A DNA stretch of 64,000 bases from Akkermansia muciniphila (GTDB taxonomy: Bacteria > Verrucomicrobiota > Verrucomicrobiia > Verrucomicrobiales > Akkermansiaceae): assembly GCF_018709685.1 (NCBI RefSeq), contig NZ_JABDHQ010000003.1, positions 1 to 64,000 of the forward strand, written 5' to 3'. Position 1 is the stretch's first letter. The number at the start of each line of letters is the position of its first letter. Positions 44,632 through 47,462 of this stretch are shown in pieces. Position numbers and translations under genes: made by a program. The notes beneath the pieces were generated by a model. That model was not told where the DNA came from and did not search any database. It saw nothing but the letters and a program-made list of their open reading frames with translations.

Positions 44632-44667
44632 TCCTAAAATATTCATACAACTTTTTCCAGAGCTCTC

Positions 44668-44683
44668 CGGATTATCAATCCGG
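44668..44683. repeat. Left 16-bp inverted repeat (IRL) of a putative invertible element
   Basis: CGGATTATCAATCCGG, the exact reverse complement of 44940-44955. The site is itself nearly palindromic with an ATC centre, and is part of a 9-bp hairpin (44665-44685). It lies 36 bases after the stop of the DUF3472/BNR gene. Confidence 0.85.
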
Positions 44684-44689
44684 AGTCAA
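44684..44689 (-). promoter_or_regulatory. TTGACT -35 box facing away from the autotransporter
   Basis: On the minus strand TTGACT directly abuts IRL. In the orientation shown, the base pairs 17 nt beyond it (AGAGCT) are no -10. After inversion it would sit 17 nt from AATTAT (44957-44962), in front of the autotransporter. Confidence 0.55.
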
Positions 44690-44790
44690 GAGCGAATTCT
44701 AAGAGTCAGGAATTTGTGCGGAACAGCTACTGTATCATGAAGCATTCCCCCGCATTAACTTCCCCGGATTCGCCCCACACGTTCCGGGAG

Positions 44791-44810
44791 CGCCGCATGT
44801 CCATGCGGCG
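44791..44810. repeat. GC-rich palindrome inside the putative invertible segment
   Basis: CGCCGCATG (44791-44799) and CATGCGGCG (44802-44810) are perfectly complementary with two bases between. This could be a terminator-like or protein-binding site within the segment. Confidence 0.5.
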
Positions 44811-44939
44811 TCTGCACTAGATGTGTCCGTCAGGACGTACTGCCTTTCCGAGAATACAGTTCGCTGCCGCTCAGTTCCATATTCAGGTGCCACGACGCTC
44901 CTTGCAGAGGCAGGTATTTATGTGCTGTTTTAATGCATA

Positions 44940-44955
44940 CCGGATTGATAATCCG
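44940..44955. repeat. Right 16-bp inverted repeat (IRR) of a putative invertible element
   Basis: CCGGATTGATAATCCG, the exact reverse complement of IRL at 44668-44683. It ends 14 bases before the autotransporter ATG; the fixed AATTAT (44957-44962) lies just outside it. Confidence 0.85.
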
Positions 44956-44969
44956 CAATTATCATTAGG

Positions 44970-47462
44970 ATGAAAACGATATTGCCATTTAAACCAGTAA
45001 TATCCCGGCTCTTTTGCATCGCCGGCATTACAGTGGCCGGAAGTTTCCTGGCGGAAGGCGCAGGTGTGGAACTCACCTATCCCGGAGCCCCACTGGACGA
45101 AAACGGCCTCCTGTTCCCGCAGGACAGCCTATCGGACAACACGGTCTCCATCACGGGAGGCTCCATTCCCGGAAACGCCTATGGAGCCAAAACAACAGAC
45201 GGAGACACTGTCCGTAACCGGATTTCCATGACCGGAGGTTCTGTCCTCCATCTTCTCGGAGCTTATTCCGCGACGGGAACCGTGGAATATAATTCCGTCA
45301 TTCTTGGGGGCGGGACGGTCGCCCGCAACGTTTATGGCGGAGAAAGCGGCAGCGGAAACGCTCAATATAATTCCATCACAATGACGGGGGGAAGCGCTCA
45401 ATGGGTGCAGGGGGCCTACAGTGATTCCGGCAATGTCACGGGGAACGAAGTCCTTATTTCCGGCGGTACGTTAAGCGGCGGCGTCAATGGAGGCCAAACA
45501 GCCGGCGGAGACGCTATCTCCAACAGCGTGCGGCTTGGCAATGCCACGGCAACTTGGCTCAACGGCGGCTATTCCTCTACAGGGAATGCCTCCGGCAACC
45601 GGGTAATCATCACCAGCGGCGGCGTCAACAACAATGCCTTCGGAGGTTTTGTGGAATCCGGCCGGGGGAACGCCTGCAACAACCTGTTCATCATGCATGG
45701 AGGAGAAGTGGGGCTCAACGGAGAAATACCCGGCGTAGGCCATGGAATCATGGGAGGGAGGGCCAGTGAAGGAAACGCCTCCGGCAACCGGGTAATCTTC
45801 CTCGGTGGCCATACAGGATTCATTGACGGGGGGACTTCCTCCAACGGAGGGGCCGCTTCCGGCAACCATGTTCTTATTCTGGGAGGGAACATTGACGGCT
45901 CCGTCACGGGTGGAATGAGTTTCCAGGGATCTTCCAGCGGCAATGTGGTGGAAATCCGGGGAGGCACGGTAGGGGGATATATCTACGGAGGCAGAGCGGA
46001 CAAAGGAACGGCCAGCAACAATACCGTTATTCTGGAAGGCAACTTCAACCTTAACGGTGTTTTCGGCGGATGGGACGCCTATGCCTCCAGTCCAGGAGCC
46101 ACGGCTATGGATGTAACAACGGGCAACATGCTCATTCTGGAAAACTTTCAGGGAAGCGCAACGAACGTGGGCAATTTTGAGCACTACGTTTTCCGCCTGT
46201 CGTCCTGGAACGAAAACGGCGCTCCCATGCTCACCATCTCCAACGGAACTTCTTCCACCGCTCCCTCGGCTACGGACCTTTCCGGCTCCACCATCCGGGT
46301 GGAAATCACCGGTGTTTCTCCGGGAAGCCCCGGCCCTGCTGTGGGAGACACCATTTCCCTCATCCGCAACAACATGGGGCTCATCACCAACGGCATGATC
46401 CTGAAAACCCCTTTCGTCTCCTTCAAACGCGGCATCGCCATGCTCTATGACGCCGCCGTCTCCGTGGGAAACACCAGCATTGACGCTACCGTCACTTCCA
46501 GCCGCCTGAATCCCCAGCTGAAATCCCTTTCCGAAGGCCGCGCCGCCGCCATGGCCCTGAACAACCAGGGCGGGGACCTCGCCGCCGGGCTGGGAATCAG
46601 CCGCGCCGCCATGGCCACCATGCGGGGGGGCTCCCCTTCCGGCATGGAAACATTCCTCGCCATGGAAGGCTCTCATTCCAACTACGCCACCGGCTCCCGT
46701 GTGGAACAGGACGGCTACGCCATTCTGGCAGGCGTTTCCGCCGGATTTTCCAAAAACCGTTCTGTAGTGCTGGGCGGTTTCATGGAAAGCGGCTGGGGCA
46801 GCTACACGGCCCACAACGCCTTTGCAGACGCCCCCTTTGTACGGGCTTCCGGGGACACCTCCTATTACGGCGGCGGCCTTCTGGCCCGCTGGGACCTCAC
46901 GGATAACGGCCTCAGAGGAATCGCACTGGAGGCTTCCTTCCGCGCGGGACGGCTGGACTCGGACTACCGCAGCGGAGACCTAGTGGACGGGGCGGGCAAT
47001 CCCTCCGCCTATAACCTTTCCTCTCCTTACTACGGCGGCCACGCTGGAGCGGCGTTGACAAGGGAGCTGGGCCGGAAAGTGAACATGGAGGCCTACGGGC
47101 GCTTCCTGTGGACGCGCCAGGACGGTGACCACGCCACGGTCTCCGGGGACCATATCCGGTTCCGGGACATGAACTCCAGTCGGCTCCAGGGCGGTGCGCG
47201 CTTCCACTACGAGATGACGCAAGCCATCCGCCCGTACGCGGGAGCGGCGTATGAATGGCAGTGCAATGGAACGGCCCGCGCCTCCGCCTACGGCCAGGAC
47301 ATCGCCGCGCCCACCTTGCGCGGCGGCACGGGCATGGCGGAACTGGGCGTGATCTTCCAGCCCGTAGCCGGCAAACCCATGTTCGTTGATCTTGGAGTGA
47401 AAGGATACGCGGGCAAACGCGAGGGGGTGAGCGGAAACCTCCAATTCCGGGCGGCTTTCTAA
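44970..47462 (+). CDS. Autotransporter with repetitive passenger domain
   Basis: An 830-residue protein with a long signal peptide (about residues 1-30, cleavage near AEGA). Residues about 35-360 consist of degenerate repeats of roughly 30 residues, pattern N-x-V-x-I-x-GG, then GG-x-(S/T), then G-x-A-x-x-N, which should form a beta-helix. Residues about 560-830 are an outer-membrane autotransporter barrel (DGYAILAGVSAGFSKNRS, GGLLARWDLTDNGLRG, GMAELGVIF) ending in aromatic Phe (LQFRAAF), as required for BAM recognition. It is predicted to be surface-exposed. It lies directly behind the putative invertible promoter, so its expression may be phase-variable. Confidence 0.88.
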   Translation: MKTILPFKPVISRLFCIAGITVAGSFLAEGAGVELTYPGAPLDENGLLFPQDSLSDNTVSITGGSIPGNAYGAKTTDGDTVRNRISMTGGSVLHLLGAYSATGTVEYNSVILGGGTVARNVYGGESGSGNAQYNSITMTGGSAQWVQGAYSDSGNVTGNEVLISGGTLSGGVNGGQTAGGDAISNSVRLGNATATWLNGGYSSTGNASGNRVIITSGGVNNNAFGGFVESGRGNACNNLFIMHGGEVGLNGEIPGVGHGIMGGRASEGNASGNRVIFLGGHTGFIDGGTSSNGGAASGNHVLILGGNIDGSVTGGMSFQGSSSGNVVEIRGGTVGGYIYGGRADKGTASNNTVILEGNFNLNGVFGGWDAYASSPGATAMDVTTGNMLILENFQGSATNVGNFEHYVFRLSSWNENGAPMLTISNGTSSTAPSATDLSGSTIRVEITGVSPGSPGPAVGDTISLIRNNMGLITNGMILKTPFVSFKRGIAMLYDAAVSVGNTSIDATVTSSRLNPQLKSLSEGRAAAMALNNQGGDLAAGLGISRAAMATMRGGSPSGMETFLAMEGSHSNYATGSRVEQDGYAILAGVSAGFSKNRSVVLGGFMESGWGSYTAHNAFADAPFVRASGDTSYYGGGLLARWDLTDNGLRGIALEASFRAGRLDSDYRSGDLVDGAGNPSAYNLSSPYYGGHAGAALTRELGRKVNMEAYGRFLWTRQDGDHATVSGDHIRFRDMNSSRLQGGARFHYEMTQAIRPYAGAAYEWQCNGTARASAYGQDIAAPTLRGGTGMAELGVIFQPVAGKPMFVDLGVKGYAGKREGVSGNLQFRAAF

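Follow-up and report, generated by a model that had tools for sequence, protein, structure and literature searches.

Inverted-repeat switches have been described in Akkermansia. CGGATT..AATCCG is a published Akkermansia inverton repeat motif (Jiang et al. 2019, cited in PMC13343947), and the available text of PMC13343947 reports that the cps1 capsule switch of A. muciniphila uses it. In the available part of an inverton survey (PMC11892184), the Akkermansia invertons with this motif constitute group 138. The survey counts 32 A. muciniphila invertons in the group, one of them near two autotransporter-domain proteins, and the invertase links in that part of its text do not cover the group. Inversion of Akkermansia invertons was demonstrated with reads and PCR, according to the available text of both sources (PMC13343947 and PMC11892184).

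We analyzed a 64,000-nucleotide stretch of A. muciniphila DNA (RefSeq assembly GCF_018709685.1, contig NZ_JABDHQ010000003.1, positions 1 to 64,000; here, the window) in which an earlier note had proposed an invertible promoter, in the OFF orientation, ahead of an autotransporter gene. The element is very probably an inverton with a split promoter, driven by a tyrosine recombinase. Judged by its sites, the putative switch is a new locus of the known Akkermansia inverton family.

Results

Sites and promoter boxes at the window locus

A check of the sequence bore out the geometry described in the earlier note. Exact 16-bp inverted repeats (44668-44683 and 44940-44955) enclose 256 nt and lie 14 bp 5′ of the ATG at 44970. 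TTGACT abuts the left repeat and reads away from the gene, AGAGCT is the hexamer 17 bp beyond it, and TGCATA, which abuts the right repeat on the inside, now stands 17 bp before AATTAT. Extended by one base, the repeats become 17-bp sites (CCGGATTATCAATCCGG at 44667-44683 and CCGGATTGATAATCCGC at 44940-44956). Both sites match CGGATT..AATCCG with 0 mismatches, they lie a few hundred base pairs apart, and their spacers (ATC and GAT) are identical in inverted orientation. Each arm is a palindrome around an asymmetric 3-base spacer, and it is this spacer that gives the site its direction. The element is intergenic, between 44631 and 44970, with the autotransporter-like gene downstream (Table 1).

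Table 1. Coordinates of features at the window locus
Feature	Position	Strand	Remarks
Upstream neighbour, 1151 aa	41176..44631	+	DUF3472/PA14/sortilin-like
AGAGCT	44661..44666	-	Hexamer now faced by the -35 box at 17 bp; no -10 box
Left recombination site (putative), CCGGATT-ATC-AATCCGG	44667..44683	+	Family motif CGGATTNNNAATCCG; motif published for Akkermansia invertons
Invertible segment (predicted), 256 bp	44684..44939	.	Bounded by both sites
-35 box TTGACT (candidate)	44684..44689	-	Within segment, against left site; points away from gene in present OFF orientation
TGCATA	44934..44939	+	Inner hexamer now at gene end; no -35 box
Right recombination site (putative), inverted copy (CCGGATT-GAT-AATCCGC on + strand)	44940..44956	-	Spacer is left spacer inverted
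AATTAT, candidate fixed -10 box	44957..44962	+	Abuts right site on the outside
Autotransporter-like surface protein, 830 aa	44970..47462	+	Signal peptide, Gly/Asn-rich repeats, C-terminal ...LQFRAAF

The slot can be recognized in related species by the conserved 3′ end of the upstream gene. Four other species have neither the gene nor the element there, and in a further genome (G012) only gene fragments were found. The name autotransporter, as used in the earlier note, rests on the architecture of the 830-aa protein. The protein's sole model match is the LOFI repeat model, no Pfam or NCBIfam barrel model matched, a PDB sequence search gave nothing usable, and an iterated profile did not reach known barrels. 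A single-sequence AlphaFold model (pLDDT 31) was too poor to use.

Related sites in this and other genomes

Further copies of the 16-bp site were sought in the genome, initially with ≤2 mismatches to the window repeat allowed, and many were found, in close inverted pairs. The relaxed pattern CGGATTNNNAATCCG has 56 exact matches in this genome, compared with 0 for the same pattern read backwards, and shuffles of the window give an expectation of 0 matches; on both counts the window pair is beyond chance. At least 29 site pairs in this genome have the same geometry as the window pair, and the genes adjoining the switches include PEP-CTERM proteins, glycosyltransferases, and autotransporters, a pattern that is as expected. 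About 20 site-poor genomes carry a single unpaired site with spacer TTC/GAA, probably within conserved coding sequence (L354:2513, L355:2593, and others).

The sites listed in this genome, in G009 (complete genome, same species), and in G001 (complete genome, same genus) yielded a set of 89 pairs. Within each pair the 3-base spacers match in inverted orientation, and between loci they differ; the match within pairs is not a free result, since the pairing rule demanded it. Among neighbouring sites of this set in the three genomes, none had directly matching spacers, and only five unmatched neighbour combinations occurred; they came from two clusters, four of the five from a tandem of two internally matched pairs. 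Spacers vary freely even between paralogous segments that are 95% alike (CCT in L237 and CTA in L245 of G009). Free variation between loci combined with a match within the pair is the behaviour of the strand-exchange region of a site-specific recombinase.

Position of promoter boxes relative to the sites

The arrangement read earlier from the window, with the -35 box inside the segment, the -10 box outside, and the repeat as a 17-bp spacer, proved to be typical of the family, as sampled by the 89 pairs. In 81/89 pairs TTGAC (≤1 mismatch) lies immediately inside the site at one end and not the other; no pair has it at both. Exact TTGAC occurs 75 times at distance 0 from the site and at most once at each of the next 39 positions. 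A binding-arm role would need TTGAC at both ends and is therefore disfavoured. Directly outside the site, the dinucleotide TA is present at exactly one end in 56/88 pairs (background 3.6%). Of the pairs in which one end clearly has the -35 box and one end clearly has TA, 21 are in the ON and 30 in the OFF arrangement, which indicates that the -10 box goes with the flank and the -35 box with the segment. Read in this way, the 17-bp recombination site is the putative promoter spacer, across which the -35 box flips while the -10 box stays.

The fixed hexamer in the window matches TATAAT at 4/6 positions and is without the leading TA usual in the inverton family, making it a weaker -10 box than in most sibling switches. 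Relatives with few sites often have TATACT or TATGCT as the fixed hexamer, near the consensus -10. Transcription from the joined promoter would be expected to give a near-leaderless or leaderless message, since the ATG lies only 7 nt past the -10 candidate. In several switch-controlled genes (window 44957-44970 and L045:5360-5380 among them) the start codon lies very near the -10 position, and leaderless messages are likely.

Candidate recombinases

The earlier statement that the window encodes no recombinase held in a genome search, which placed all five tyrosine recombinases of this genome outside it. A serine recombinase was rejected as the inverting enzyme, as none was matched in the genome. 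XerC, XerD, and a 365-aa protein on contig C48 are the only tyrosine recombinases common to this genome and G009. The C48 enzyme contains a Phage_integrase domain (PF00589, E 9.7e-10); R, K, R, and H are conserved with XerC/XerD, the C48 family has D for the first H of HxxR, and the catalytic Tyr was assigned by eye. The 3.4 kb around its gene are conserved in three further genomes. A third Xer-like recombinase (L069; G000 C19:18395-19354), conserved at ≥90% in only 6/76 genomes, was rejected as a general enzyme, since many site-rich genomes lack it, G009 of the same species among them.

Orthologues of the C48 enzyme at ≥90% identity are present in 12/76 genomes, which have 36 to 84 sites each. 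These account for 12 of the 14 site-rich genomes, and no site-poor genome has such an orthologue. The remaining two, G045 (88 sites) and G002 (22 sites), are without a close orthologue (best 44 to 47%); all others of the 76 genomes have ≤11 sites each. Alone this correlation is weak, as the 12 genomes seem to be a single group of close relatives and common ancestry confounds it. In site-poor genomes, C48-family genes of 37 to 42% identity start 16 to 213 bp from 12/21 site pairs and face them, and one more C48-family gene lies beside a site pair in G003. This proximity is a line of evidence independent of the orthologue correlation. In several site-poor genomes (L319, L320, L323, L329, L280, and others) a module-like set recurs that consists of a C48-family recombinase, one site pair, and a small protein of ~80 aa (..IDRTSVIKLALYLFA..). 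The small protein is divergent from the recombinase, lies in several cases behind a TATACT-type hexamer, and had no Pfam match over the cut-off.

This genome also encodes a 448-aa paralogue of the C48 enzyme (C1:313.6 kb) with a site pair just before the gene. TTGACT in that pair (L288:4408-4571; G000 C1:313.4 kb) stands directly before the likely start, and the paralogue may itself be phase-variable.

We consider it probable that the C48-type tyrosine recombinase family supplies the inverting enzyme. It is unlikely that XerC/XerD or another recombinase outside the C48 type does so. XerC and XerD occur in every genome examined closely and are likewise shared with G009, G045 holds its 88 sites without a close C48 orthologue, and the recombinase search was confined to the tyrosine and serine families. 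Yet XerC/XerD are found just as regularly where sites are few or absent, and genes of the C48 family repeatedly adjoin site pairs, in site-poor genomes, in G045, and at C1:313.6 kb of this genome. For the window switch, the enzyme is most likely the 365-aa C48 tyrosine recombinase or a paralogue of it, as suggested by these gene distributions.

Orientation of segments between genomes

Nineteen orthologous pairs were compared between this genome and G009. Two were flipped, two had the same flanks and a different inner segment, and the rest agreed. The flipped pairs (L042/L229 at C1:31.5 kb and L046/L225 at C1:332.8 kb) are 98 to 99% identical once inverted, with flanks of 94 to 99% identity. 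Because two orthologous pairs are opposite in two genomes of one species, such segments do invert. The proposal of an invertible promoter in the OFF orientation gains support from these two pairs and from the same-geometry pairs described above. By analogy with its siblings, the window segment may be expected to invert as well.

The two pairs with conserved flanks and different inner segments are L047/L236 and L067/L247. In this genome L047 and L067 are 91% alike and both have the spacer CCA; this points to swapping of inner segments among loci of equal spacer. In one case, the start of a contig (L056, G000 C15:1) falls right within a recombination site, which would be expected had the reads held both orientations.

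A comparison of the window segment across Akkermansia genomes, a check proposed earlier, found it OFF in each of its four carriers (this genome, G009, G001, and G046), representing at least 3 species. In G009 and G001 the segment is 97.7 to 98% identical and lies the same way round. The autotransporter-like homologue in G046 occupies the same slot behind the same element, which has an altered but matched spacer (GCG/CGC) and AAGGAT at the -10 position. This homologue (L367) is split over two overlapping frames and may be broken or misassembled. Finding only OFF at this locus in four consensus genomes, from comparison collections with one genome per species, is a weak test, and two sibling pairs show both orientations.

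Agreement in orientation among four genomes of at least 3 species, together with the weak AATTAT box, could also mean that the element is a former inverton locked OFF, with intact sites but no flipping or a dead joined promoter. This is improbable: both sites are perfect motif matches in three genomes, the flanks have diverged at least as much as the segment, and the G046 spacer is altered on both sides yet matched, which suggests continued recombination. Seventeen other orthologous pairs are also in a single orientation in this genome and G009, so agreement in orientation says little by itself. A hairpin role for the repeats, as terminators of transcription or as REP-like elements, is hardly credible, for although every site is a palindrome able to form a hairpin (the left site with a 9-bp stem), the sites of the family lie in close pairs with matched inverted spacers, two of which were seen inverted, and terminators need neither matching 3-base loops nor a -35 box inside at one end only.

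Discussion

The preferred reading is an active inverton with a split promoter. A tyrosine recombinase would bind the two palindromic 17-bp sites, and strand exchange within the matched spacer would invert the 256-bp segment. The segment would carry the -35 box at one end only, the -10 box being fixed outside, beside the gene. Inversion would join TTGACT to AATTAT at the standard distance, with the 17-bp site as spacer, and switch on the surface protein; as sequenced, the -35 box faces away, and the gene would be OFF. The site family, the spacer matching, the -35/-10 layout, and the two sibling inversions speak for this reading. The OFF state in all four carriers, a -10 box without TA, and an ATG 7 nt away speak against it.

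For Akkermansia more broadly, we lean toward a model in which the site serves as promoter spacer, only the -35 box flips, and each gene keeps its own -10 box. Dozens of switches would then be driven by one chromosomal tyrosine recombinase family, marked by D for the first His of HxxR, with satellite copies that carry their own switch. If this is true, dozens of switches of one simple design determine the surface of an abundant gut commensal. The split plan would explain the 17-bp length of the site and the one-ended -35 box, and the ON or OFF state could be read straight from any assembly. Removal of the candidate enzyme would freeze all switches together and so open the role of phase variation in Akkermansia to testing.

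The split-promoter layout and the enzyme assignment are possibly new parts, and we do not claim priority for them. The window locus and its genome, the use of the repeat as a spacer, and the inverting enzyme were not described in the available text of the inverton literature searched, in which Jiang et al. 2019 figures through citation. The same scope, in which terms such as "-35" were unsearchable, yielded no promoter split across an inverted repeat.

The comparison with Bacteroides in the earlier note is an analogy, both systems having promoter segments bounded by inverted repeats, but the site belongs to the published Akkermansia inverton family. In the invertible capsule promoters of Bacteroides, the whole promoter lies within the segment, whereas the window switch would have the -35 box alone inside.

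As far as their available descriptions go, the Akkermansia CGGATT..AATCCG invertons resemble the window element in motif, genus, segment size, and position 5′ of surface proteins, autotransporters included. The cps1 inverton (PMC13343947) is described as sharing the motif and OFF/ON control of a surface structure; it governs a capsule operon, whereas the window switch faces an autotransporter-like gene. The UpaE element of uropathogenic E. coli, in the available text of PMC6083910, likewise combines an invertible promoter, a tyrosine recombinase, and an autotransporter target, but differs in its site, its recombinases, and its phylum.
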